A stretch of DNA of 64,000 nt from a virus. A program made the translations under genes and the position numbers. The notes beneath the pieces are model-generated. The model was not told the origin of the DNA and searched no databases. It worked only from the letters and a program-made list of their open reading frames with translations. The DNA lies in the IMG/VR virus record IMGVR_UViG_3300030419_006726, positions 90,916 to 154,915 of that record; one strand, 5' to 3'. Positions 1,917 through 64,000 of this stretch are shown one piece after another; position 1 is the stretch's first letter; every line of letters begins with the position of its first letter.

Positions 1917-1930
1917 ATTAGGAGGTTATG

Positions 1931-3121
1931 ATGAAACTTATAATGGAGAATTGGCGCAAGTTCGTCGCAGAGACCGAGCGAACTAAAAACTACGGTGACT
2001 TATATCTTTTTGAAAACGATTCAATTCAAAAAGTTTCTTTTTATGACAGATTCACCTCTCTCAGAGAAAGTGATGAAGATTTCGAGATTTTTCTTGAGCA
2101 ATGGGAAAAATCTGTTGATTATATTTTCAATAATCTCTCAGAACAAGAAGAAAGTAACGATGCGATTTTAAGAGCAAGTACTCAGGCATATATGCTTCTT
2201 CAAAGAGGTGGAGCAGCAGTGGGCAAGGTAATGAATTTTGCCAAAAAATTAAAAGATAAAGGCGCTTTAGGTAAAGTAGGCGATGTAGTTTTAACAGGAT
2301 TAATAGCAGCTGCAGGTGCTGTAACAATTAATTCGTTAATGCAACAGGGAGTGGACGCGTCTGAATTTCAACAGGCTGTAGCACAAGTCGCTGATGCAGC
2401 ATCAGCGGTAGATCCAAACGTTGCACAAGCAGTAGAACAAGTAGCTCAAAATCCAGAAGCAGCGCTTGAAGTGATGCCACAGCTTGATCAAGCAGTGGAA
2501 CAGTCCGCGCAACAGCTAAGTCAAGTTGACAATGAAGCTGTACAGCAAATGGCGCAAGAAGCAGAAAAAGTTTCACAACAAATTCCTGAAAAGGATGAAT
2601 TTGCGTCGATGTTCGAAGACGCATTGCGTCAAGATAGAGTGCAATCAGACACAGGCGAGACTGGGATTACAAACATTGAACAATCAGAACAAATAGATTA
2701 TTGGGATTACAGTGATGAAGATTTTCAACAAGAGGGCTGGCGCGACAAAGTAAATGATATATTTGATAAAATATTTGGGCGTGGTCACTCGAAAGGGAGA
2801 GGTTTCCCAATCGGCGACCCGGAGGCGTGGAGAGAAACTTTTGAAATTCTTGACAACACAAGAGGTGGAGAACATGGGGCATGGCTCCAGGGAGCCGAGG
2901 GTGATATGAGCCGATCAGAATTTAAAGAACTTATAAGTGCTTTAGATCAACAAGGGGTGGATAAGAAAGTTTTAAGAACACTTAATAGAGTATACCGTCA
3001 AGGTAAAATGCAGGCTTTCGTAGGTAAGCTAGAAGATACTATACTAAAACTTGCCGACTACGATGACGTTGCAGATATTAGAAACTGGAAAGCCCCAGCC
3101 CCCGAACAAATGCCATTTTAA
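1931..3121 (+). CDS. Leader-tagged (KLxxENWRKF) predicted head-internal protein
   Basis: A 396 aa acidic protein starting MKLIMENWRKFVAETE, the same leader style as the genes at 55690, 62745 and 63260. I chose the second of two tandem ATGs (1928/1931) because AGGAGG at 1920-1925 is 5 bases from it and only 2 from the first. After the leader there is a VAE site, a Gly/Ala-rich hydrophobic stretch (around residues 120-145, VGDVVLTGLIAAAGAVTINSL region), then a Gln/Ala/Val-rich helical region of coiled-coil type and a charged C-terminus. No enzyme motif is visible. I infer an internal head protein that might meet the membrane during DNA entry. Confidence 0.5.
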   Translation: MKLIMENWRKFVAETERTKNYGDLYLFENDSIQKVSFYDRFTSLRESDEDFEIFLEQWEKSVDYIFNNLSEQEESNDAILRASTQAYMLLQRGGAAVGKVMNFAKKLKDKGALGKVGDVVLTGLIAAAGAVTINSLMQQGVDASEFQQAVAQVADAASAVDPNVAQAVEQVAQNPEAALEVMPQLDQAVEQSAQQLSQVDNEAVQQMAQEAEKVSQQIPEKDEFASMFEDALRQDRVQSDTGETGITNIEQSEQIDYWDYSDEDFQQEGWRDKVNDIFDKIFGRGHSKGRGFPIGDPEAWRETFEILDNTRGGEHGAWLQGAEGDMSRSEFKELISALDQQGVDKKVLRTLNRVYRQGKMQAFVGKLEDTILKLADYDDVADIRNWKAPAPEQMPF

Positions 3122-9219: not shown

Positions 9220-9470
9220 AAATCACAAAAACACAACTTAAAAGAATTATTAAAGAAGAATTAAAAGAATACGCCACGGCTCAAGAGCCACCAATGGATA
9301 ATCCTGGGCCGCCCCCGGGGCGTTTTGAGAAGCTTTTTGAAAAGGGCGCTCCCGGTGATGTTTTTGCCGAAGCAGTCGCCAGCCAACTGTGGCTAGATGA
9401 AGAAAGCGATTTTGAAGCCGTAGTGAGGGCCCTCAAAGATGGTCTGGAAAGGTGGAAAGAGTATAAATGA
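9216..9470 (+). CDS. KITKTQL-leader protein
   Basis: An 84 aa protein starting MKITKTQLKRIIKEEL. The frame is open further upstream, but this ATG is chosen because it starts the conserved leader and forms an ATGA overlap with the preceding stop. LKE follows the leader. A Pro/Gly-rich linker (PPMDNPGPPPGRFE) leads to a small acidic helical region (FAEAVASQLWLDEESDFEAVVRALKDGLERW). The function of that module is unknown. Confidence 0.55.
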   Translation: MKITKTQLKRIIKEELKEYATAQEPPMDNPGPPPGRFEKLFEKGAPGDVFAEAVASQLWLDEESDFEAVVRALKDGLERWKEYK

Positions 9471-9745
9471 AGATCACCAAATTCCAACTTAAACAGATTA
9501 TTAAAGAAGAGCTACACAAGCTTAAAGAAGGCGGATATGCAGGACACCAGCGGAAGTTTCCCCGCCCCTTTCCTAAGACTGCAAAGTGGTGGTCTCAAGC
9601 ATTCAACACGGTTATTGAAGACGAGATTGGTTTTTCAGAACCTACCCCATACCAAAAAAAAGCTATCTTAGATGGCCTTCGAAGCGTTATGAACGACATG
9701 GATTTTCAAGAGCCTGCTGAGCCTCAAGAGCCCGAACTACCATGA
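9467..9745 (+). CDS. KITKFQL-leader protein
   Basis: A 92 aa protein starting MKITKFQLKQIIKEEL. LKE-G at residues 20-23 matches the T4 gp21 cleavage consensus (L/I-x-E then small residue). The body (KFPRPFPKTAKWWSQAFNTV and later) is similar in size to its neighbours but not in sequence. ATGA overlaps at both ends place it in one translational unit with 9216 and 9742. Unknown function. Confidence 0.55.
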   Translation: MKITKFQLKQIIKEELHKLKEGGYAGHQRKFPRPFPKTAKWWSQAFNTVIEDEIGFSEPTPYQKKAILDGLRSVMNDMDFQEPAEPQEPELP

Positions 9746-10080
9746 AAATCACAAAATCACAACTTAGACAAATTGTTGAGGAAGAACTAAAAGAGGTTAG
9801 AGCTAGCATGATGGGTACCGATTGGGCCTCCTTTCCTCCTCGTGATTTTGAGAGCCATGGTGAAGGTTCGATGGCCGTCAATCAATTGCACCGCACAGAA
9901 GAACTTGCAAGAAAGCTACAAGACATGATTTCTAAGGACGACAATCTAGAAGAGTGGGTAGAGTCGAAAATCACAAAAGCTCAAGATTATTTGTCATCTG
10001 TACTAAATTACATGAGCGGCGAAAGAGGTCAGGTCGCCGAATTGCGCAACCAACTTAGCACCAATTCTGAACAAAAATGA
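9742..10080 (+). CDS. KITKSQL-leader protein
   Basis: A 112 aa protein starting MKITKSQLRQIVEEEL, with LKE at residues 16-18. The rest is helical and mildly acidic (HRTEELARKLQDMISKDDNLEEW... and a C-terminal heptad-like stretch). ATGA overlaps at both ends. No domain recognised. Confidence 0.55.
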   Translation: MKITKSQLRQIVEEELKEVRASMMGTDWASFPPRDFESHGEGSMAVNQLHRTEELARKLQDMISKDDNLEEWVESKITKAQDYLSSVLNYMSGERGQVAELRNQLSTNSEQK

Positions 10081-17656: not shown

Positions 17657-18253
17657 ATGGCAAAGAAACTTTTACGAGAATATTATGAATTATGCGAAGG
17701 CGGCATCTGTCAAGATCTTTTAACTGAAGAGGAAAAAAGATATGTAGCCACCGGCGGGATGATTTTGTCTGGAAAACTTCAAGAGGCAGATTGCCAGAAT
17801 GGAAATGGCCGTGTATACCCTCAAGCAATTCTAGAAAGAGAAATGAAGAATTATAAAAAGCTTGTAAAAGAGAGAAGGGCTCTTGGCGAACTAGATCACC
17901 CCGACGATTCAGTTATTAATTTAAAAAATGCATCTCATATGGTGACAGATGTTTGGTGGGACGGCCCTAATGTTATGGGCAAGGTTCAAGTTCTCAACAC
18001 GCCATCGGGCAAGATTCTTAAGGAACTTGTGAACGATGGCGTAAAGTTGGGCATCTCTTCTAGGGGCCTAGGATCCGTTACTGAGAGTCAGGGAAAGACC
18101 ATGGTCGAGGACGATTTTCAGTTAATTTGTTTTGATTTTGTTTCTGAGCCCTCGACGCCAAATGCTTTTATGATCAAAGAAGCAAAAGAAAATAGAGTAT
18201 TTACTAAAGCAGACCGCATCAATAGGGCTTTAAATAGCATCTTGGACGATTAA
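17657..18253 (+). CDS. Prohead maturation protease (T4 gp21-like)
   Basis: A 198 aa herpesvirus-assemblin-fold serine protease. The catalytic His is in GELDHP (H81) and the catalytic Ser in GISSRGLGS (S134/S135). The N-terminal ILSGKLQEADCQNGNGRVYP segment is typical of gp21-type proteases. In T4 the enzyme is assembled inside the prohead, cuts scaffold, capsid and internal proteins at [IL]xE sites, then destroys itself. Here the many [ILV]xE sites after the conserved leaders make it the obvious processor of the tagged proteins. Confidence 0.92.
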   Translation: MAKKLLREYYELCEGGICQDLLTEEEKRYVATGGMILSGKLQEADCQNGNGRVYPQAILEREMKNYKKLVKERRALGELDHPDDSVINLKNASHMVTDVWWDGPNVMGKVQVLNTPSGKILKELVNDGVKLGISSRGLGSVTESQGKTMVEDDFQLICFDFVSEPSTPNAFMIKEAKENRVFTKADRINRALNSILDD

Positions 18254-18255
18254 AA

Positions 18256-20184
18256 ATGAAGAGGTCTGATCTAAAAAAGATTCTTATGGAAGAGGCGCTT
18301 TCTATTTTAAGTGAGAAAATGTCTGAAGAGGATCGTTGCGAAAAGATAATGGCAATGACCATGCAACAAATCGCAGACAACATGCTGCAAGACGAGTGGA
18401 GAGAGTGTCGGAAAAATGTAGATCTCAGGCAGAGAATCAAAGACAAGATTGATGACTCTAAGCCTGAAGAGCCGGCTGCAACATCATCTCCCGAAGAAGG
18501 CCCAACTGGGACACCTCCAGAAAGCATCACAGACCGCCCAGATCCTAGATCCGCCGGCAAAGCAAAACCAACAGGAGTTGCCCCGGGCGAAAGACCAACA
18601 AAAGTCCAGCCTACCGAGAAGCCCGCAGATGCAGCCGCAGAAGAAGAGGACGAAGACGCTATTTATGGTCTAACCTCAAAAAAGAATCCAGAGTCTCTAC
18701 TAAACATCTTAAGTAAAGCCGGCTTTGAAACAGGCGTGATTCGTAAAGTGATTGCTAAAATGAAGCAATTAGCCGATGACGATAACATTGTGCTCGAAGC
18801 AGTCTCTCTTAGAGGCCGCGGCAGCGAACAAGACAGAGTTATGAACTCTGAAAGTGTTGGAGAATTAATATCATTAGTTAGAAGCCTGGGTCTCGATGCA
18901 GACCAGAACAGAGCTATGATGAAAGCTCTTAACAATTGGGGCAACAGAAATACAGTTAGATTTGAAAAGCCGACATATGCTCCTGCTGCCCAACCCGCGC
19001 CAGAAAAACCTGCTGCGGGGCCAGAGAAACCTGCTGCGGGGCCAGAGAAAGAGGAGCCTCGCGCTGCAGGCGGGCTTACTGACGACCCCCCAGCCTACAC
19101 GACTGCAGAAGATCCCGCACAAACTGCAGACGTGGATGTCGGTGAATTTGGTCTTAGTTCCGATCCTCCCTCAGAAGAAGGCCAGACTGATATCGCCTAT
19201 TCCGGTTTAGGCTACGGAGATGCTTATGCGAAACGAAAGGAGGAAGAAGCCGTAGCAGCAGTTGGCGACATGGAAGAAAAAAGAAAGGCAGCGCTAGCTG
19301 CAGCTTTTGCTCGAAAAAAAGAAGCAACTGACAAATTCGAACGCGCACCTGAAGGCGACGAACTTCTATCGGCATCGAATGCCGTGATGGACGCAGAACG
19401 GAAATTTAAAAAGGCAAAAAAGGCTCTCGAAGCGGAGTCCTCCCCGGAAGCTGTTGAAAATTATCTGAAAGATGTGGAGGCTGACTTAGCTCGTATGAAA
19501 GACCTTCCCGCTGTTGAAGGGGATCCGTTTGATTTCACAGATTTCGATGAGAAAGAAGCCGCCGGTCTTGAGCCCGAAGGCGAAAAGGAGAAGCTTTCGA
19601 GAGAGGACTTGATAGCCCGGGCAATTAAAGATATTAAAAACATGGATGATATTCAAACGTTTCGATCTAGATATTTTGATCTCTTAAAAAAGACCGAATA
19701 TTGGAAAGACGCGGGCTATAACGATTATGGAAAAGCAAAACATATTATTGACAAATCTATGGGAGACATTATAGCCAATGCAGATGAGATCGTACATGCT
19801 ATTTCTAACCGATTGCAACTAGATGATGAGCACATTGAAGATATAAAGAAAATAACAAATTTTGGCGATAAAGAAAGAAGATTTGTACGACAATTAATAA
19901 TGCTCTCAGCTGCAAAATTATGGGTCGAAGAGAAGTTTCCAAAAAACCCAGTGCTAGATGATAAAACATACAAGAGGTGGAGAGCTACAAAAGGCGGCCA
20001 AACTTTAGTTGATAGATTGACTGACCCGAAGGTTCTTGCATCATTTGGGGAGGAGGTCGCATCCTCTGGCGATCAGCCACTTGCGAGAACTGGCGCGGAC
20101 GTGCGGCAGCTTGATGTTCAAGACTCGCTTCAAGAACAGAAGACATTTAATCGTTGGAAATTATTAGCAGGAATAAGGGAGTAA
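18256..20184 (+). CDS. Large acidic prohead core-like protein with terminal tags
   Basis: A 642 aa, strongly acidic Ala/Pro/Glu/Lys-rich protein that starts 2 bases after the protease. It begins MKRSDLKKILMEEALSIL, a variant of the KITKSQL leader, and ends TFNRWKLLAGIRE, close to the scaffold end KRMKELAGIK. The middle holds low-complexity APEKPAAGPEK repeats and coiled-coil regions (about residues 330-420). These features fit a scaffold/core protein degraded or packaged during maturation. No enzyme motif is visible. Confidence 0.6.
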   Translation: MKRSDLKKILMEEALSILSEKMSEEDRCEKIMAMTMQQIADNMLQDEWRECRKNVDLRQRIKDKIDDSKPEEPAATSSPEEGPTGTPPESITDRPDPRSAGKAKPTGVAPGERPTKVQPTEKPADAAAEEEDEDAIYGLTSKKNPESLLNILSKAGFETGVIRKVIAKMKQLADDDNIVLEAVSLRGRGSEQDRVMNSESVGELISLVRSLGLDADQNRAMMKALNNWGNRNTVRFEKPTYAPAAQPAPEKPAAGPEKPAAGPEKEEPRAAGGLTDDPPAYTTAEDPAQTADVDVGEFGLSSDPPSEEGQTDIAYSGLGYGDAYAKRKEEEAVAAVGDMEEKRKAALAAAFARKKEATDKFERAPEGDELLSASNAVMDAERKFKKAKKALEAESSPEAVENYLKDVEADLARMKDLPAVEGDPFDFTDFDEKEAAGLEPEGEKEKLSREDLIARAIKDIKNMDDIQTFRSRYFDLLKKTEYWKDAGYNDYGKAKHIIDKSMGDIIANADEIVHAISNRLQLDDEHIEDIKKITNFGDKERRFVRQLIMLSAAKLWVEEKFPKNPVLDDKTYKRWRATKGGQTLVDRLTDPKVLASFGEEVASSGDQPLARTGADVRQLDVQDSLQEQKTFNRWKLLAGIRE

Positions 20185-20188
20185 ATCA

Positions 20189-21088
20189 ATGAGTACCAAT
20201 ATTACAAAATCACAGCTTAAAAAACTATTAAAAGAAGAATTCAAGAGAAGATTGAAAGAGAGGGCCGACCCTGCAGGGGTGGATCCAAATCGATTCCCGA
20301 CAAAATTAAGTCAAGTAAAGGCAGATCCTGAAGATGCTAGGCGCGATGCCACTGGCGGTACCGCTGACGGTGCACAGCCCGACGATGTTATTGGTGTTAC
20401 TCCAAATTATACAGCACCGGTCGCCCAACTAAAGCCCTCTCAGTCGAGTATGAATATTGCAAAGGCCATGGCCCAGGCGCTATCAATGCTTGCTGGTAAA
20501 ATGGATACTGGTGGAGATTTGGGAGCATTTATTAGTAACGATGGTCACATTATGGATGGCCACCATCGCTGGGTTGCGACTGCAATGGTGGATCCTTCAA
20601 AAGAGGTTGGCGGATATCTGGTGGACTTTCCTGGCACCCAGTTGATTGCAATTCTAAACGCTATCACGGTTGGTCGCCTAGGCAATCCCGATGGGAAAGC
20701 CGGAAAAGGAGGCTTTGAACAATTTCAGCCAGAACCAATCTTGAGGCAGTTGACGGAATACTACCAAAACGGTATCCCTGGAAAATTCCCTTGGTCACCA
20801 GAAGAGGTGCAGCAAACTGTGCACGAACACGGCGGTGGAGAAGGGGAGCAAGCTATTCGAGCACTAGCTGGTAGGTTTGCAAAAAATGTGACGGCTCTTA
20901 AATTTGAGGTTCCACCCGGCGCCCCCGCAAGACCTGACATGCCCGTTATTGATGGCGACAAGGCTATCAAGACAGCTGTCGGAGCCCTTGCTGGCGGCGA
21001 GGTAGATGTCAATGAACCGTATGCCGATCAGCAGGAAGTTGCAGAGGCAAAAACATATGATCGCTGGAAAGAACTTATTAAAGGCTAA
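20189..21088 (+). CDS. ParB-like domain protein with capsid-type tags
   Basis: A 299 aa protein with NITKSQLKKLLKEEF at its N-terminus and TYDRWKELIKG at its C-terminus. Between them, residues 113-133 (FISNDGHIMDGHHRWVATAM) match the ParB/sulfiredoxin-like motif with DGHHR at 123-127, which binds nucleotide or acts as a nuclease in ParB-like families. LKE follows the leader. GGGAG precedes the ATG. Located directly after protease and core protein, it is best explained as an enzyme packed in the prohead. Substrate unknown. Confidence 0.6.
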   Translation: MSTNITKSQLKKLLKEEFKRRLKERADPAGVDPNRFPTKLSQVKADPEDARRDATGGTADGAQPDDVIGVTPNYTAPVAQLKPSQSSMNIAKAMAQALSMLAGKMDTGGDLGAFISNDGHIMDGHHRWVATAMVDPSKEVGGYLVDFPGTQLIAILNAITVGRLGNPDGKAGKGGFEQFQPEPILRQLTEYYQNGIPGKFPWSPEEVQQTVHEHGGGEGEQAIRALAGRFAKNVTALKFEVPPGAPARPDMPVIDGDKAIKTAVGALAGGEVDVNEPYADQQEVAEAKTYDRWKELIKG

Positions 21089-21092
21089 AAAA

Positions 21093-21524
21093 ATGAAAAG
21101 ATCAGAATTAAAACAAATTTTAAAACCCTTAATTAAAGAATGCATCAAAGAAGCAATTCTTGAAGAGGGGCTGTTGTCAAATGTTGTTTCAGAAGTTGTT
21201 AAAGGCTTGGGAACAAACACGATTGTTGAGCAAAAAGCCCAACCGGCTCCAAGACTAGCGATTAATGAAGAACGCGAGCGGGAACAAATTAGGGCTCAAA
21301 CCACCAACACAAGAAAGAAAATGCTTGATGCTATTGGTGCTGCTAGCACGATCAATGGCGTTAATATTTTTGAGGGCACTGAGCCACTTAGACGCGGCGG
21401 TTCAGCCGGTCCTGCCGGCCCCTCTTCACCGCTAGGCGATGTAGACCCTGGAGATCCAGGCATTAATATTGATGGCATCTTTTCTGTTGGCGGATCAAAG
21501 TGGAAGGCATTGATGGGTAAATAA
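21093..21524 (+). CDS. Leader-tagged small core protein
   Basis: A 143 aa protein starting MKRSELKQILKPLIKECIKEA, the same leader type as the 642 aa core-like protein. LEE-G at residues 26-29 matches the gp21 consensus. It ends GGSKWKALMGK, a third version of the WKxL terminal tag. The central part is Gly/Pro-rich. I start it at 21093, where the leader begins, although the frame is open upstream within the previous gene. Confidence 0.5.
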   Translation: MKRSELKQILKPLIKECIKEAILEEGLLSNVVSEVVKGLGTNTIVEQKAQPAPRLAINEEREREQIRAQTTNTRKKMLDAIGAASTINGVNIFEGTEPLRRGGSAGPAGPSSPLGDVDPGDPGINIDGIFSVGGSKWKALMGK

Positions 21525-30700: not shown

Positions 30701-31825
30701 ATGTCTTCAATGTTAGAACAAGCAATCATTGATGCGACAGCTTTGAAAGAAGCCGCAATTAAAAACGCCGAGGCGGCTATTATTGAAAAATATGCCCCTG
30801 AAGTTAAGAAGGCAGTAGCCACACTATTAGAACAAGAAGAAGAACTTGATCTGGGCGCCGACCCTGCAGGTATGGGCCTTGATACCGGCCCGGTAGCTAT
30901 GGAAACTTCCGTCGATCTACCGCCAGCTGCCGGTGACGGCGAAAGTGTCTGCCCCTGCCCAGAAGAGGGCGAAGCAGAGGAAATAGAGGTTGATATCGAT
31001 CAATTGCGAAAAATGGCACTGCAAGAGCCTGAAGGCGGACTTGAAGATCTCGGAGCGCTAGCTGGCGAACCATTCCCAGGAGAAGACGAATTGGCATTGC
31101 AAGAGGAAGTTGATATTGATGAAGATTTCTTAACAGCTCTCTTAAGAGAAGCCAAGAAAAAGTCGAAACCCGATGGAGATGGTGACGGTGTTCCGCCATG
31201 GGCTGACAAGGACGACGATGATCCAGAGGTCCAAGAAGAAGAAATTGAAATCAATGAAGAAAACATTTCTGATATTATTGAAGAATTAGTTGTTGATATG
31301 GAGCCGCAAAAGACTGGCTGGCTTGGAACAGGCCTACCAGAACTTGAGCATGCCGCCGAAATGGAAATGGCCCGCCGCCAATCAACAGAACACGAAGAAG
31401 AAAAAGCTGAGTATGAAAAGTCTATCAAAGAACTTGAAGAGCAGAATACAGCTTTAAAAGAATACACTTTTAAATTAAAAGAAGCGCTTACTCGTTTGAC
31501 AGGCAATCTCGATGAGTTGAATCTGTCAAATGCGCGTTTACTATATACGAACCGAACGTTAAGTAGCATCTCCTTGAATGAGAGACAAAAAAATAAAATT
31601 GTCCAAGCTATTTCAAATGCCGGTTCTGTCGAAGAGGCGAAAACAATATATGAGACCCTTCAGAGCACAGTGGGATCCACTCCGTCAAGGAGAACTCCAC
31701 AATCACTGAGCGAAGCAGTATCACGTCCCTCGACCGGTCCAATATTAACCAATAGAAGGCCAACAAACCAAAATCAAGACAATTCTTTCACCAAAAGGAT
31801 GAAAGAGTTGGCAGGCATTAAATAA
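30701..31825 (+). CDS. Prohead scaffolding protein (T4 gp22-like)
   Basis: A 374 aa, very acidic, helical protein directly upstream of the major capsid gene. The N-terminus (MLEQAIIDATALKEAAIKNAE...IIEKYAPEVK) is typical of gp22 in marine T4-like phages. Acidic Asp/Glu runs and a coiled coil (residues 225-290) follow, and the end KRMKELAGIK should contact capsid protein. Several [IL]xE sites would let gp21 degrade it. A Ca-binding-like DGDGDGVPPWADKDDDD loop lies near residue 160. Confidence 0.8.
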   Translation: MSSMLEQAIIDATALKEAAIKNAEAAIIEKYAPEVKKAVATLLEQEEELDLGADPAGMGLDTGPVAMETSVDLPPAAGDGESVCPCPEEGEAEEIEVDIDQLRKMALQEPEGGLEDLGALAGEPFPGEDELALQEEVDIDEDFLTALLREAKKKSKPDGDGDGVPPWADKDDDDPEVQEEEIEINEENISDIIEELVVDMEPQKTGWLGTGLPELEHAAEMEMARRQSTEHEEEKAEYEKSIKELEEQNTALKEYTFKLKEALTRLTGNLDELNLSNARLLYTNRTLSSISLNERQKNKIVQAISNAGSVEEAKTIYETLQSTVGSTPSRRTPQSLSEAVSRPSTGPILTNRRPTNQNQDNSFTKRMKELAGIK

Positions 31826-31840
31826 GGAGATAAAATTAAC

Positions 31841-33697
31841 ATGTCTATTTTACAAAAATTAACCGAAGGCATCGTTCAACGTGATCTCAAGAAAGAAGGT
31901 TCCGCACTACTATCAAAGTGGGAGCGTACCGGTCTTCTTGAGGGAATGGGCGACGATCGCGCTAAGGGTGGCATGGCTCGCTTGCTTGAGAATCAGGCAA
32001 AAGAGCTACTTAGGGAGGCCACAACAATGGCAGCTGGTGACGTTGAAGGTTTCGCCGCAGTTGCATTCCCTATCGTCCGTCGTGTATTCGGTGGACTTAT
32101 CGCTAACGATCTTGTTAGCGTTCAACCAATGAGCTTACCTTCTGGTCTGATCTTTTTCCTCGACTTCAAGCTCAATGATGGAAGTCGTCTAAGCACCTCC
32201 GGTTCTTCACAGTCCGTTTATGGTGGTGGCGCTGTCGCTAGCCAGATCACTGGTGGTGTTGACTTGTCCGGTGATGAGGCTGAAAACAGCTTCTACGGAC
32301 TGAACCAGGGATATGCTTCCCCAACCGGTTCCGCACTTATGACCTTGACAGTTGTTGCTTCCGGTATTGTCGGTTCTAATACCGGTGACGATGTTGATAA
32401 CAGCGTTACAGCTGCTTCCATTGGCGCTAGCACCGTCAACACTTCACTAAGCAAGCTTGTTCGCTATGACCCCGATCTTTCCGGATCTTCGGTCGTTGTT
32501 GCAACCGCCCCTGGTGACAGTGAGTTGGCACAGCTTAATCGCAACAACCTTATTTCTTTGGTTATTGCAGATGATACCGATAACAATGACGATTCTACTG
32601 GTACCGATGGTCTAAGCTCTAACAAGGGTAGACAAGTTCGTCGTTTGACAACCATGGTTGGTCGTACAGCCGCATCTGCTCAACGTTCGGTGCACAACTT
32701 GGACGTTGATTCTTCATCAGAAACATCTTACGTGCTTGTTTTCCAAGGTACAGCTTCTGTTGGTAGTGACGCTGAAGTTGCTAACCTTAAGACAGAGTTG
32801 GGTACCGGCGCTGGCGCAGAGTATTCATTCTCTTTCCCAATTGATGATAAATTCCAAGCTGGTGGGGCCATTGGTTCTGTCGTTGGTAGCACAACCTGGG
32901 GACTTGAAGGTGAAGAGAACATTCCTGAGATCGACTTGAAGGTCGATAGCATTGCAGTCACAGCGAAGACCAAGAAGCTCAAGGCCAAGTGGACTCCAGA
33001 GTTAGGACAAGATCTTAACGCTTACCACAACCTTGATGCCGAGGTCGAGCTTACCAGCATCCTCTCTGAGCAGATTGCTCTTGAGATCGATCGCGAAATC
33101 CTCAACGATCTAGTTCGTGGCGCTACTGCTGCTACTTACTACTGGGCAAGAATGCCTGGAATGTTTGTTGAGCGCGAGACGGGTGCAGAAATTGGTGCAG
33201 CTACTAAGGCTCCCGATTTCACCGGTACAGTCAGCGAGTGGTATGAGACTCTTGTTGAGACAATCAACGATGTGTCCGCTCAGATCCACCGTAAGACACT
33301 TCGCGGAGGCGCTAACTACATCGTTACTTCTCCCGAGGTTGCTAACATTCTCGAATTCACAGCTGGATTCCGCGCAAGCGTAACCGCTGATGCAGACAGA
33401 GGAACAGTTGGCGCTGTCAAGACTGGTGCTCTTAGCAAGAAATGGGATGTGTACGTCGATCCTTACTTCCCACGGAACGTTGTTCTCGTCGGACGTAAAG
33501 GTGGAAGCTTCCTTGAAAGCGGCTACGTGTACGCTCCATATGTGCCACTACAGGTGACACCCACTATCTTTGGACCAGAAGACTTCGTGCCCCGTAAGGG
33601 CGTGATGACTCGTTATGCCAAGAAGATGGTTCGTCCCGATATGTACGGTCTAGTTATCGTGCGTGGTATGCTTGGTGAGTCCGGACTAGAAAGCTAA
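31841..33697 (+). CDS. Major capsid protein (T4 gp23-like)
   Basis: A 618 aa HK97-fold capsid protein. The pro-region has the gp23-type sequence MARLLENQAKELLREA, and LRE-A at residues 57-60 predicts maturation cleavage after E59 by the gp21-like protease (T4 gp23 is cut after E65). The mature part begins TTMAAGDVEGFAAVAFPIVRRVF, as in T4-like capsids. It is longer than T4 gp23 (521 aa), with an apparent insertion around residues 130-290. Codon use is strongly biased to GGT, GCT and CGT, as expected for the most abundant phage protein. AAGGAG precedes; a terminator follows. Confidence 0.93.
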   Translation: MSILQKLTEGIVQRDLKKEGSALLSKWERTGLLEGMGDDRAKGGMARLLENQAKELLREATTMAAGDVEGFAAVAFPIVRRVFGGLIANDLVSVQPMSLPSGLIFFLDFKLNDGSRLSTSGSSQSVYGGGAVASQITGGVDLSGDEAENSFYGLNQGYASPTGSALMTLTVVASGIVGSNTGDDVDNSVTAASIGASTVNTSLSKLVRYDPDLSGSSVVVATAPGDSELAQLNRNNLISLVIADDTDNNDDSTGTDGLSSNKGRQVRRLTTMVGRTAASAQRSVHNLDVDSSSETSYVLVFQGTASVGSDAEVANLKTELGTGAGAEYSFSFPIDDKFQAGGAIGSVVGSTTWGLEGEENIPEIDLKVDSIAVTAKTKKLKAKWTPELGQDLNAYHNLDAEVELTSILSEQIALEIDREILNDLVRGATAATYYWARMPGMFVERETGAEIGAATKAPDFTGTVSEWYETLVETINDVSAQIHRKTLRGGANYIVTSPEVANILEFTAGFRASVTADADRGTVGAVKTGALSKKWDVYVDPYFPRNVVLVGRKGGSFLESGYVYAPYVPLQVTPTIFGPEDFVPRKGVMTRYAKKMVRPDMYGLVIVRGMLGESGLES

Positions 33698-55223: not shown

Positions 55224-55232
55224 ACTAATTAG
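55224..55232 (+). promoter_or_regulatory. ACTAATTAG element before thioesterase and NTase
   Basis: A recurrent-element copy ending only 7 bases before the ATG at 55240, so its message would be almost leaderless. It is the weakest placement of the set. Confidence 0.3.
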
Positions 55233-55239
55233 TAGTATC

Positions 55240-55689
55240 ATGGAACTTATTTCAACACACTTTTGCAAAGCAGCAAATGTCGGTTATCACGGCAACCTTT
55301 TTGGTGGCACCCTGTTGGGATGGCTTGACGAAGCCGGCGCAATCTTCGCATGTCAAGCCTGCGACACACCAAGAATGGTGACAAAGAAAATCTCAGAAGT
55401 TGTTTTTAACAAACCGGTTCGCCCGGGCCAAATTATTAAAATATACGGTGAAGTTGTTCGTGTTGGAACTAGGTCGATAACTATACGAATGGAGGCGAGG
55501 AGACACAGTGTCTATAACGGCTCGCAGAAGATAGTTCTTACGACTGATATGACATTTGTTCGGATTGACGGCGACGGAGAGGCGATCCCTTTAAGTGAAA
55601 AAGTCAAAAGAAAATACGGCAACCCAGAAGTAACAGTCGAGATTGTCGCGACCGATGATGAGACAAAGAACTGTTACGAGGGGGACTAA
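55240..55689 (+). CDS. Acyl-CoA thioesterase-like (hotdog fold)
   Basis: A 149 aa single hotdog domain of YciA/acyl-CoA hydrolase type: N-x-x-GNLFGGTLLGWLDEAGAIFA (catalytic Asp and helix), then VTKKISEVVFNKPVRPGQIIKIYGEVVRVGTRSITI. It should hydrolyse acyl-CoA esters in the cytosol, which could alter fatty-acid or CoA pools during infection. It is flanked by polymerase and nucleotidyltransferase genes, so it looks like an auxiliary metabolic gene. It abuts the next ATG. Confidence 0.75.
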   Translation: MELISTHFCKAANVGYHGNLFGGTLLGWLDEAGAIFACQACDTPRMVTKKISEVVFNKPVRPGQIIKIYGEVVRVGTRSITIRMEARRHSVYNGSQKIVLTTDMTFVRIDGDGEAIPLSEKVKRKYGNPEVTVEIVATDDETKNCYEGD

Positions 55690-56835
55690 ATGAAAAAACT
55701 ATTTGAAAATTGGCGAAAGAGTATTGAAGAAGATGTTGATACATCATCTTTCGTAGTGCGCGAGGAATTGCATCAGGATTTTTGGAACCAACCAGACGAT
55801 AGATTAGATCCAGAAATTAGAGAAAAGCTATTGGAAATTGCGCGACACTTTATGGAAAAATATGAAGTTTCTGATGTGCCAATCAAAGATATCACATTCA
55901 CTGGCTCGCTAGCTAACTATAACTGGTCAAAATATTCAGATGTAGACTTGCATATAATTATTGATTTTGCAGAAGTAGATGAGAACTTTGACTTGGTAAA
56001 AGAATATTTCAATTCTAGAAAATCCCTGTGGAATCTTCAGCATGAAATTATAATTCGCGATTTTGAGGTTGAAATTTATGTTCAGTCTGATAAAGAGTCG
56101 CATGCCTCAACCGGTGTTTATTCTATCCTCAACGATGACTGGGTTACGCGTCCCGCTGTGTCAACCGACGCGAGCGATATTGATTTTGACACCGTGAAGA
56201 AGAAGGCAGAGTCGCTAATGGATCAGATCGACCGAGCCTTGGAGCTTTATGATAGAGAAAAATATCAAGAAGCCCTCGATCGAGCAGAAATGTTGCGAGA
56301 GAAAATTAGAAAATTTAGACAATCCGGTCTTGAATCTGGAGGCGAATATTCTATTGAAAATATCGCATTTAAATCACTGCGCAGAAATGAATATTTACTA
56401 AAACTATCACAGCTTAAGCGCGATGCGTATGACAGGCTGATGTCAATCGATGAAGGTGTGCTTGTTAAGTTTCCAGGCGAGGATCCACTCAAGCCTAGAA
56501 AAAGTTATGATCCCATATCTTATTTGAATGATCAAGAGCTTTTGGCTCTCGCGGGAAAACAGTTCCCACCAGATCCAGCGCATGCTCCTCCAAAGATTGA
56601 GCCAGGATCCGCGGAGGAAGAAGAGTACGAAAAGCTCATGGCTCCACGAACTCCAGAAACCCCAGAAGAACGCCACTATTCGGAGCAGCAGCGAGCCAAG
56701 ATGATAGTTTGGACGTATGAGCAGGGTGGCCAGGACGAAATTTCTCACAAAGATTATCTTGACGCCATATTGGTATTAAAAAGAGCTAGAAAGTATCCCC
56801 ATCTTCAGACACACCCCGGCGGAAAAGAGGTGTGA
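55690..56835 (+). CDS. Leader-tagged minimal nucleotidyltransferase
   Basis: A 381 aa protein starting MKKLFENWRKSIEED, with IEE as a possible protease site. Residues 66-130 carry the NTase signature: G72S73 in FTGSLANYNW, D84xD86 in YSDVDLHI, and E128 in FEVEIYV as third acid. The C-terminal half is charged and helical with a Pro/Glu stretch. Minimal NTases nucleotidylate or pyrophosphorylate proteins, RNA or small molecules. With the leader I infer that it is packed in the head and delivered, similar in concept to T4 Alt. Substrate unknown. Confidence 0.65.
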   Translation: MKKLFENWRKSIEEDVDTSSFVVREELHQDFWNQPDDRLDPEIREKLLEIARHFMEKYEVSDVPIKDITFTGSLANYNWSKYSDVDLHIIIDFAEVDENFDLVKEYFNSRKSLWNLQHEIIIRDFEVEIYVQSDKESHASTGVYSILNDDWVTRPAVSTDASDIDFDTVKKKAESLMDQIDRALELYDREKYQEALDRAEMLREKIRKFRQSGLESGGEYSIENIAFKSLRRNEYLLKLSQLKRDAYDRLMSIDEGVLVKFPGEDPLKPRKSYDPISYLNDQELLALAGKQFPPDPAHAPPKIEPGSAEEEEYEKLMAPRTPETPEERHYSEQQRAKMIVWTYEQGGQDEISHKDYLDAILVLKRARKYPHLQTHPGGKEV

Positions 56836-56836
56836 G

Positions 56837-57676
56837 TTGAATGTCATTGGCTTAGGCGCCGCAGGTTGCAATATTGCTGATCAATTTGCCAAGTATCCTC
56901 AATATAATATATATAAAATTGATGTTGGGTTGGACGGCTTGAAGAAAGACGGCATATATGCGATGCCAAAACAGAAGACTGCCGAGGACTATGAGGCCAA
57001 ATGCCCTTCGCTGAAAAACTTTTTTAAAAACGTTAGCGGCGAGGTCTTGTTTATAGTTTGCGGAGCAGGTAAGATTTCTGGCTCAACATTGCGGATATTA
57101 GAAACAATTAAAAATTGTCAGATAAGTGTGATGTATGTTGTGCCGGACACTGAACTACTGAGCGAATTATCTCAAATAAGAAACAAGATTTCATATAATA
57201 TTTTGCAACAGTATGCGCGGTCTGGACTTTTAAAAAGGGTGTATATTGTTGGCAACCCATCGATTGAATCTATAATTGGAAGCGTGCCCATCGTGGGATA
57301 CTATGATAAGCTGAATGAAGTGATCGCGTACACGATGCATATGATAAATGTATTTAAAAACACACCGCCAGTTATGAATACATTTTCAGAACCTGTTGAT
57401 TTTGCTCGCATTTCTACGATTGGTACGATCGGCGATGAGCAAAAAAAAGAAAATTTGTTTTTTCCACTTGACAATATTCGCGAACGAGTGTATTATCATG
57501 GAGTACCTGACAATTTGCTCAAGAACGATGGAGGCCTCTTGAAGAGTATCACCGAACAAGCAAAAAGCTCTTCAGAGGATGGCAAGATTAAAACTAGTTT
57601 TGGCATCTTTCCTACAGAGTACGAGCAGCGATATTGTTTTACAGAGGTGCACACATCTTTTATACAAAAAAGTTAA
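56837..57676 (+). CDS. Tubulin/FtsZ-like candidate
   Basis: A 279 aa protein from TTG (56837). The order of motifs parallels FtsZ: NVIGLGAAGCNIADQF at 2-17 (FtsZ VIGVGGAGGNAV), a KID-x-GLDGL segment at 28-35, VLFIVCGAGKISGSTLRIL at 70-88 in place of the GGGTGTG loop, ISVMYVVP at 96-103, helix-strand RVYIVGNPS with N140 (FtsZ IPN), and helix KLNEVIAYTMHMINVF. The glycine loop is degenerate, so GTP binding is uncertain, and it is shorter than FtsZ or PhuZ. Alternatively it may be a Rossmann-type protein. Confidence 0.5.
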   Translation: MNVIGLGAAGCNIADQFAKYPQYNIYKIDVGLDGLKKDGIYAMPKQKTAEDYEAKCPSLKNFFKNVSGEVLFIVCGAGKISGSTLRILETIKNCQISVMYVVPDTELLSELSQIRNKISYNILQQYARSGLLKRVYIVGNPSIESIIGSVPIVGYYDKLNEVIAYTMHMINVFKNTPPVMNTFSEPVDFARISTIGTIGDEQKKENLFFPLDNIRERVYYHGVPDNLLKNDGGLLKSITEQAKSSSEDGKIKTSFGIFPTEYEQRYCFTEVHTSFIQKS

Positions 57677-62530: not shown

Positions 62531-62752
62531 ATGAAACTATTTACTGAACACCCAAACTCTGTGGGTGAAACATATATGCAACATTCTGTTGCTGCTACTA
62601 AATTATCACTAAGGCTATCGATGGCATCACTGGCTCAGCTAGTGCATGCCATTTTTCCGTTTTTTAGCCCTCCGTGTGGAACCGATGTGTGTTCGATGAT
62701 AGATTATTTAGAAAGCAAGAAGCCAGAAACAAGGAGGCAGTGCGATGAATAA
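62531..62752 (+). CDS. DUF6356-like small protein
   Basis: A 73 aa protein, MKLFTEHPNSVGETYMQHSV..., with the EHPxSVGETYxxH start and a hydrophobic segment SLAQLVHAIFPFF that I recognise from the DUF6356 family of small bacterial membrane-associated proteins. The C-terminus holds PPCGTDVCSMIDYL. I start it at the ATG after GAGGT rather than 18 bases upstream. Function unknown; probably acquired from a bacterial host. Confidence 0.6.
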   Translation: MKLFTEHPNSVGETYMQHSVAATKLSLRLSMASLAQLVHAIFPFFSPPCGTDVCSMIDYLESKKPETRRQCDE

Positions 62753-63263
62753 GTTGTTTGAAAATTGGAGAAGATTTTTGTTGACCGAAGCCCAGGGCAA
62801 TGCTATTTACAAGGGTTACTTGGGGTGGCAGATTCCAAATGAGCTTGTAGATCTTGCAGGCGTTGACGAGAGTTATATCAAAAATCGTATTGAGCGAGAC
62901 GGGCAAGACATTTATCACATCACTATTATTAATCCAAAAGAAACAAGACAGATTATAAAAGATATTAAAGCCGAGAAGGGACTTTCCGGCAGCAAAGCCA
63001 AGAAAGAGGTGAAAAGCATCCTTCTTCAGAGGGGGGAATCATTGGCCCAAAGTGAGTTTAGCATTGGCGAGACCAAGAGCGTAGAAGGTCCCGGCGACGG
63101 CGCCGTTGGCACAGAAGGCGAACCTTCCTCTGCATTTTTCAAAGTTGTCGAGTGGGAAGAGGCTCAGGCTTTACGTGCGGAATACGGATTGCCCCCTAAA
63201 GACTTGCATATCACGCTAGGCATTGGAGATAATGGGGATGTTCATGGAGTAGAAAAAATATGA
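62745..63263 (+). CDS. Leader-tagged 2H phosphoesterase-like protein
   Basis: A 172 aa protein starting MNKLFENWRRFLLTEAQ; LTE-A at residues 13-16 matches the gp21 cleavage consensus. The body has two H-[IV]-T-[IL] motifs, H58ITI and H155ITL, separated by 97 residues, as in the 2H phosphoesterase superfamily. That family includes T4 Acb1, which cleaves cyclic nucleotides of CBASS immunity. The domain start (GYLGWQIPNELV) and the strand before the second motif fit. I infer a packaged, injected cyclic-nucleotide or RNA phosphoesterase. The long charged insert (residues 70-128) is unusual. Confidence 0.6.
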   Translation: MNKLFENWRRFLLTEAQGNAIYKGYLGWQIPNELVDLAGVDESYIKNRIERDGQDIYHITIINPKETRQIIKDIKAEKGLSGSKAKKEVKSILLQRGESLAQSEFSIGETKSVEGPGDGAVGTEGEPSSAFFKVVEWEEAQALRAEYGLPPKDLHITLGIGDNGDVHGVEKI

Positions 63264-64000
63264 AACTTTTATTTGAAAATTGGCGAAAACATTTAAATGA
63301 AAAAACCTTTGCGGACTATGAGGCCGACAAGGGAGAGTGGGTTGATGTCCCTGTTGGCGATATCGAGCACGATCCAGACAACGTTGATCTGACTGATGAA
63401 TTATATGCTTTAATTGATATTGCATACGCCCCGATCGGAGGTCACTTTGATTTTGATTCACCGAGCGACTTGCCCAGCGATCACAATAATTGGCTAGCGA
63501 TGGACTGGGATGAAGATCCACAGCCCGATGTTTTGAGAGTTGGAAAGAAAAAGACTGGCGGTACCAAGATGACCGCGGCCGGCCACGATGGCCAGAAGAG
63601 AAGCAAGGGCCACTACATTAGAAAGACTATAGACATGCTTGGCATGCGCGGGTTTTATGCAGAGATGTCAAAAAGGATTGCTGATATTATGATTGGTAGT
63701 GGGGTTCCATATGTCGACAACGAGGAAACTGTCCGCAAAGTACTGGGCGCCAGTAAGCCAATTCAGTGGCTTGGTGCACACCCCGAAGGAAAGCATCCAG
63801 AATATCAGGGCTGGTATCGTAGGGCGGTTGGAGGCCATGAAGGTGAATTAAAAATTATGCTTGGTACACCAACAGTTTCCGCTCCAGTTGAGGAGCAGAA
63901 TGAGCCGTTTCAAAGAAAAGTTAGAGCAAAACATGACAAAATGAAAAAGAAGTTGGTCGGACCGGCTGGTGGCGCGAGATCAAAGAGTGCGCCCCCTGGT
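63260..64000 (+). CDS. Leader-tagged protein, 3'-truncated
   Basis: ATGA overlap with the previous stop; 247 codons are visible and the frame is open at the window edge. It starts MKLLFENWRKHLNEKTF, with LNE as possible protease site. The following domain (ELYALIDIAYAPIGGHFDFDSPSDLP...MDWDEDPQPDVLRVGKKKTGG, then GHYIRKTIDMLGMRGFYAEMS) resembles a GNAT-acetyltransferase-style protein common in marine phages, but I cannot confirm the acetyl-CoA loop. The last part is Lys/Arg-rich. I expect another packaged effector. Confidence 0.5.
   Translation, partial: MKLLFENWRKHLNEKTFADYEADKGEWVDVPVGDIEHDPDNVDLTDELYALIDIAYAPIGGHFDFDSPSDLPSDHNNWLAMDWDEDPQPDVLRVGKKKTGGTKMTAAGHDGQKRSKGHYIRKTIDMLGMRGFYAEMSKRIADIMIGSGVPYVDNEETVRKVLGASKPIQWLGAHPEGKHPEYQGWYRRAVGGHEGELKIMLGTPTVSAPVEEQNEPFQRKVRAKHDKMKKKLVGPAGGARSKSAPPG

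Follow-up and report, generated by a model that had tools for sequence, protein, structure and literature searches.

A Pol-beta superfamily nucleotidyltransferase with a capsid-targeting-like leader as candidate head cargo of a marine T4-type phage

The window analyzed here, i.e., the whole stretch of 64,000 nucleotides, covers bases 90916-154915 of a 154,915-base (154.9-kb) record from a marine T4-type phage. The head module of this record is of T4 type, with terminase, portal, a gp21-type protease, a gp23-type capsid protein and a contractile sheath. As the initial annotation had placed it, a nucleotidyltransferase ORF lies at 55690-56835, behind a thioesterase gene. The features of the head genes and of this locus are as follows (window positions; a slash marks a predicted cleavage site):

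17657-18253, plus strand: gp21-type head maturation protease (PHROG 207, E 3.5e-55)
31841-33697, plus strand: gp23-type major capsid protein (Pfam Gp23, E 3.7e-75), with its own predicted cleavage site LLRE59/A60
55224-55233, no strand assigned: ACTAATTAG(T) palindrome upstream of the thioesterase-like ORF, present in exactly one copy
55240-55689, plus strand: 4HBT thioesterase-like ORF (4HBT, E 1.7e-14), directly upstream of the nucleotidyltransferase ORF
55690-56835, plus strand: nucleotidyltransferase ORF, ATG start, 381 amino acids
55690-55731, plus strand: capsid-targeting-like leader MKKLFENWRKSIEE, residues 1-14, predicted gp21-type cleavage after E14 (I-E-E/D)
55810-56088, plus strand: nucleotidyltransferase domain, about residues 41-133, with Pfam matches
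55903-55947, plus strand: GS-x10-D-V-D motif, residues 72-86
56071-56073, plus strand: third acid, E128
56167-56445, plus strand: conserved C-terminal helical domain, residues 160-252, with invariant K172, R210, K228, R231 and R232
56446-56832, plus strand: C-terminal extension, residues 253-381

We saw no sign of a common function of the thioesterase-like ORF and the nucleotidyltransferase ORF. Late expression from the ACTAATTAG element, which had been considered plausible, could not be upheld. The exact site is single, one-mismatch copies were no more frequent than in shuffled sequence (19 observed, 14.6 expected), and the record contains no TATAAATA; a role of ACTAATTAG as late promoter was hence dismissed. 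The ORF that follows the enzyme gene (56837-57676, TTG start) gave no significant Pfam or PHROG match, and its glycine-rich N-terminal stretch GLGAAGCNIAD recalls tubulin/FtsZ-type GTPases.

The active-site motif of the window protein runs from G72-S73 over ten residues (LANYNWSKYS) to D84-V85-D86. In 49 non-redundant family members, G72, S73, D84, D86, H88, H118 and E128 were invariant, and the GS-x10-DVD motif with a third acid had thus been read correctly from the start. Pfam NTP_transf_2 matched 44 of these members (best E 8.7e-6), while the window protein alone reached E 9.1e-4 and 20.0 bits against a curated cut-off of 21 bits. The protein also matched PHROG 36119 (E 8e-41); BFVD matches, which are named 'polymerase, nucleotidyl transferase domain containing protein' and come from uncultured phages, place it in the same family, for which neither a function nor a packaging role has been annotated. 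A fold prediction without such a domain had been named as a refutation; the AlphaFold model (mean pLDDT 83) does contain a nucleotidyltransferase domain, modeled with pLDDT >90 and strands at 65-71, 84-91 and 125-133, which is followed by the helical domain. The core of a relative was modeled with pLDDT 93. Foldseek placed the model among nucleotidyltransferases. Its nearest solved structures were AAD(9), LinB, CdnE/CdnC and MNT, all of them nucleotidyltransferases. With the two-domain aminoglycoside/spectinomycin and other enzymes AAD(9), LinB and CdnE/CdnC it shares the GS...DxD motif, the third acid and the order of nucleotidyltransferase and helical domain; in contrast, identity is only about 12% and overall superposition is poor (TM about 0.25). 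When solved structures were searched with the family profile, the DrrA AMPylase domain came first with a weak match (E 0.0067); the same search with the single protein gave no meaningful match. SidM_N matched 15 of the 49 members and an MTPAP-like poly(A) polymerase palm 33. Judged from sequence and model, the window ORF encodes a nucleotidyltransferase of the Pol-beta superfamily with the residues of its active site intact.

The more specific label of an MNT-type enzyme held for the nucleotidyltransferase fold, whereas a minimal MNT is not what we found. With its two domains, about 250 conserved residues including a helical domain, and no match above the cut-off for the minimal MNT family, the protein is not an MNT in the strict sense and should better be described as a Pol-beta nucleotidyltransferase with helical domain. 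An MNT-HEPN pair was rejected on similar grounds, since the conserved core comprises this second helical domain as compared to a single domain of about 100 residues, and since the adjoining ORFs are the thioesterase-like one and one without family match instead of a HEPN gene. The MntA model matched only 4 of the 49 members, with E 0.03. We likewise rejected an RNA-repair nucleotidyltransferase of the RlaP type, as PF10127 had no match in six contigs but did match the control genomes. For the C-terminal extension, the search for relatives gave only the close relative L294, with 78% identity.

In an IMG/VR scan we found 264 relatives of the enzyme. Relatives occur in 45 phage records, which include Maribacter, Synechococcus, Caulobacter and Lak phages as well as uncultured jumbo phages. 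About half of the 49 family members, freshwater ones included, have no evident aromatic-anchored leader, and those of Kyanoviridae and Lak phages lack it as well. In Kyanoviridae, the gene adjoins replication and transcription genes. From the many members without leader it follows that packaging is no property of the family as such, and by these comparisons the enzyme family would either be older than the leader or manage without it.

The leader named in the initial annotation (MKKLFENWRK) is present on the nucleotidyltransferase ORF, and its occurrence in the record goes beyond chance. Six ORFs of the record start with it, as compared to an average of 0.016 matches in shuffled N-termini and to none at 864 internal methionines. 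Apart from the enzyme, these are:

1928-3121, plus strand: MMKLIMENWRKFVAE/T, body without assigned function
62745-63263, plus strand: MNKLFENWRRFLLTE/A, 2H phosphoesterase (2H-SAK; PF22547, E 1.3e-19)
63260-64000, plus strand: MKLLFENWRKHLNE/K, truncated by the end of the record
L003:2966-3544, elsewhere in the record: SAM lyase
L003:2164-2703, elsewhere in the record: ORF with an LYHVS motif

Relatives of the truncated ORF in two further contigs (G001 and G010) likewise have the leader with its tryptophan (W-leader), and a search for relatives of the 2H protein gave matches that had mainly the leader in common with it. The LYHVS ORF (LYHVS...VYKVSI...E) has no Pfam match and may have an ADP-ribosyltransferase-like fold. 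An IMG/VR search gave no relatives of its body, yet contig G016 contains one at 71049-71744, leader included.

Beyond this record, we examined 45 leader ORFs from contigs that had been fetched through the enzyme and not through the leader. Counted from the leader tryptophan, 38 of them have an aromatic residue at +3, 44 have L, I, V or M at +4, and 39 have Glu at +6, with Glu at +6 or +7 in 42; the +6 count avoids loci that were fetched by a DNA pattern itself requiring Asp or Glu there. Grouped by body, the leader ORFs of all loci formed 116 clusters, of which 76 had a single member, and alignments of 36 or 37 representatives gave MKLLxENWRxYLxE and no common sequence beyond it. Several nucleotidyltransferase relatives have a ten-residue form, e.g., MDKWQTYVDE/A or MNKWQEFLRE/A. 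Bodies present in more than one contig retain the W-leader with one exception. A scan of viral contigs for the leader pattern gave at least 120 stretches. Among 84,980 cellular genomes, this pattern hit a single contig, which is itself phage, with ORFs collinear with a viral contig. PBSV01000031.1 (L292), binned as an Opitutia genome, is a phage fragment collinear with G016. In cyanophage S-N03, a scan with the strict motif found no leader set like that of the marine contigs, a weak negative given its start-site limits. The leader strings did not occur in the literature we searched, where other searches returned only reviews and papers on T4, SPN3US and P1.

The ten N-terminal residues of T4 IPIII, MKTYQEFIAE, are sufficient for packaging. 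Of these, residues 4 and 7 control targeting and residues 8 and 10 control processing, and gp21 cleaves after L/I-x-E (PMC9026906). Like the capsid targeting sequence (CTS) of T4 IPI, IPII and IPIII, the marine leader is a short N-terminal segment common to unrelated bodies. It has W at position 0, followed by Y or F at +3, L or I at +4 and E at +6, and thus the spacing of the T4 targeting and cleavage positions (aromatic, aromatic +3, Leu or Ile +4, Glu +6), which we also found in the sequences of T4 IPII, IPIII and gp23. As in T4, a gp21-type protease is encoded in the same genome. All six contigs in which we found gp23 also have gp21, and in them gp23 has a conserved LL[RK]E/[AS] site where it would be expected. 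From the gp23 site LLRE/A of this record and the T4 motif (PMC9026906), we infer L/I-x-E specificity for its gp21-type protease. Unlike the T4 sequence, the marine consensus MKLLLENWRKYLNE is four residues longer before the aromatic residue, and an acidic residue often follows the predicted cleavage site, whereas T4 has Ala. The nucleotidyltransferase itself agrees with T4 at three of the four key positions; in place of the second aromatic, Phe or Tyr at +3, it has Ser, and its nearest relative L294 has Asn.

The strongest test of the capsid-targeting reading that sequence comparison offers is the SAM lyase. In this record and its marine relatives, the body carries a W-leader, e.g., MKEIFENWNKYILSE/SGLSR or MKDLMENWQRFLVE/SSLSR. 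In a Kyanoviridae genome the same body starts with MKTFKEFLEE/SSLSR, and in a Microcystis phage with MQFKQYILGE/SSLSR. The leader thus varies by phage, while the Glu/Ser junction stays constant. Furthermore, three nucleotidyltransferase fusions (L010/G002, L034, L068) repeat the leader within the chain, at the border between the domains and just before the enzyme. In G002:22413-24605 (locus L010) this copy follows an HExxH domain and has no start codon, and in the L068 fusion another leader type stands at both positions. As the leader is common to unrelated ORFs, matches the T4 residues, is swapped for a T4-type sequence and co-occurs with a gp21-type protease, packaging is its best reading, and that part of the original claim of a packaged MNT-type enzyme can be kept in this qualified form. 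The case for packaging now stands on comparative evidence and no longer on a single protein's leader. For the leader proteins as a group, packaging into the head, processing of gp21 type and ejection thus appear well supported, although some of them, large or without assigned function, could be structural proteins of the head. For the nucleotidyltransferase, we infer the same fate of packaging, cleavage and ejection.

We hence consider it fairly probable that the nucleotidyltransferase is a two-domain enzyme carried as head cargo. The leader would dock the protein onto the scaffold core of the prohead, like the T4 capsid targeting sequence, and the gp21-type prohead protease would cut after the leader glutamate. 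The mature enzyme would then be ejected into the new host alongside other tagged proteins, i.e., the 2H phosphoesterase, the SAM lyase and others, and might transfer the NMP part of an NTP onto a host macromolecule ahead of all phage gene expression. In weighing this account, we counted against it the enzyme's own Ser at +3, the often acidic residue after the cut, the leaderless family members and the leader ORFs that could be structural. The absent aromatic and the leaderless Kyanoviridae, Lak and freshwater relatives, in which the enzyme can work without a leader, would also fit an enzyme made and used within the infected cell, early or late, with the leader binding scaffold, membrane or a compartment. 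The Kyanoviridae gene next to replication and transcription genes points in the same direction. We regard such use in the cell as unlikely, however, given that the leader positions are those that determine targeting and cleavage in T4, that the leader closes with an L/I-x-E site where the phage encodes a gp21-type protease, and that a T4-type leader replaces it on the same SAM-lyase body. That the N-termini merely resemble each other by chance, or stem from a recently duplicated 5' gene segment with promoter or ribosome site, is highly improbable. Leader genes do frequently stand in tandem, but the six ORFs exceed by far the shuffled expectation and the leader is restricted to phages. Moreover, the leader is written in varying codons, and conservation of the DNA before it does not go beyond a ribosome site; the conserved entity therefore is the peptide, and we rejected a translation signal or copied DNA segment.

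If the enzyme is packaged, two readings of its target have to be considered, each of which we hold with little confidence. It might modify RNA ends, as part of a kit that repairs or tampers with RNA, e.g., tRNA, after cleavage by host defence. This would suit the poly(A) polymerase-like palm, the invariant basic residues of the helical domain, the leader-bearing 2H-SAK phosphoesterase of the same record, and the HAD_SAK, tRNA-ligase CPD and AAA/polynucleotide-kinase-like domains on other leader bodies. However, the RlaP family is without match in the six contigs, and the solved neighbors are mostly small-molecule adenylyltransferases that superpose poorly. A transfer of NMP onto a host protein, e.g., RNA polymerase, by an AMPylase- or UMPylase-type enzyme appears just as doubtful; it would make the protein a chemical equivalent of T4 Alt. 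Here, the DrrA domain as top profile match and the SidM_N matches are in favor, as are the Pol-beta nucleotidyltransferases among polyvalent proteins that are thought to target proteins (PMC5512222), but these matches are weak and limited to the region of the catalytic motif. As a guess, we would give protein AMPylation or similar and RNA 3'-end addition equal weight, with a small molecule or another target close behind.

T4 packs Alt, an ADP-ribosyltransferase that modifies host RNA polymerase at once. The initial comparison with Alt is sensible as an analogy only. Both would be head-delivered enzymes that modify host macromolecules immediately, although fold and chemistry of the nucleotidyltransferase differ. 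To our knowledge, there is no described example of a head-delivered NMP-transferase as an Alt equivalent. We may tentatively propose, with slightly less than even confidence, that marine T4-type phages use an interchangeable head tag on more than 100 unrelated proteins, that the prohead protease splits fusions at the internal tag, and that the nucleotidyltransferase is such an Alt equivalent of other chemistry.

Among leader bodies we found matches to protein kinases, GNAT acetyltransferases, zeta-toxin/AAA kinases, Nudix, ParB, 2H, HAD_SAK and SAM lyase, among others, and also to tRNA-ligase CPD and AAA/polynucleotide-kinase-like domains. T4 internal proteins are diverse anti-defence proteins with only the CTS in common (PMC3012670). 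An anti-restriction cargo is known in T4 with IPI*, and the SAM lyase of this record plausibly has the same role. In contrast to T4, the marine leader cargo is far larger and much of it enzymatic, internal copies occur in fusions, and packaging is deduced from sequence. New relative to T4 internal-protein delivery would be the different tag and the much wider cargo with its many enzymes. The domain classes overlap with those of polyvalent proteins from phages and conjugative elements, which are proposed to travel with phage or plasmid DNA and include metallopeptidase, kinase, GNAT, ParB-like and Pol-beta nucleotidyltransferase domains, the latter published mainly from firmicute elements (PMC5512222). 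The HExxH domain and nucleotidyltransferase in one chain of G002 resemble these, whereas marine leader cargo mostly comes as individual proteins that share a short leader. Should this leader be a capsid-targeting tag, packaged effectors of uncultured phages could be read directly from sequence. Each tagged ORF would then be a candidate head-delivered protein, so that hypothetical proteins would become testable candidates for anti-defence and takeover effectors, which in this one phage would include the nucleotidyltransferase, the SAM lyase and the 2H phosphoesterase.

Several smaller observations concern related proteins. A HAD 5'-nucleotidase (IYCDMDGVLVDF) bears the leader in viral contigs L199, G010 and G001, and the N-termini are different in its relatives from Flavobacterium and Pelagibacter phages. 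A second shared leader, K-I-T-K-x-x-L-x-x-I-I-K-E-E-L, is found on roughly eight of the record's ORFs (e.g., at 9467-10080 and 18256-21524 in the window and at L002 10919-12181), one of which has the ParB-like motif MDGHHRW. In G002 and L292 this second leader occurs beside ORFs with the FENW leader, and it may be a further head tag. Finally, the ORF after the protease gene (18256-20184) and the one in the scaffold position before gp23 (30701-31825) share the C-terminus KTFNRWKLLAGIRE or NSFTKRMKELAGIK, possibly a core- or portal-binding end.
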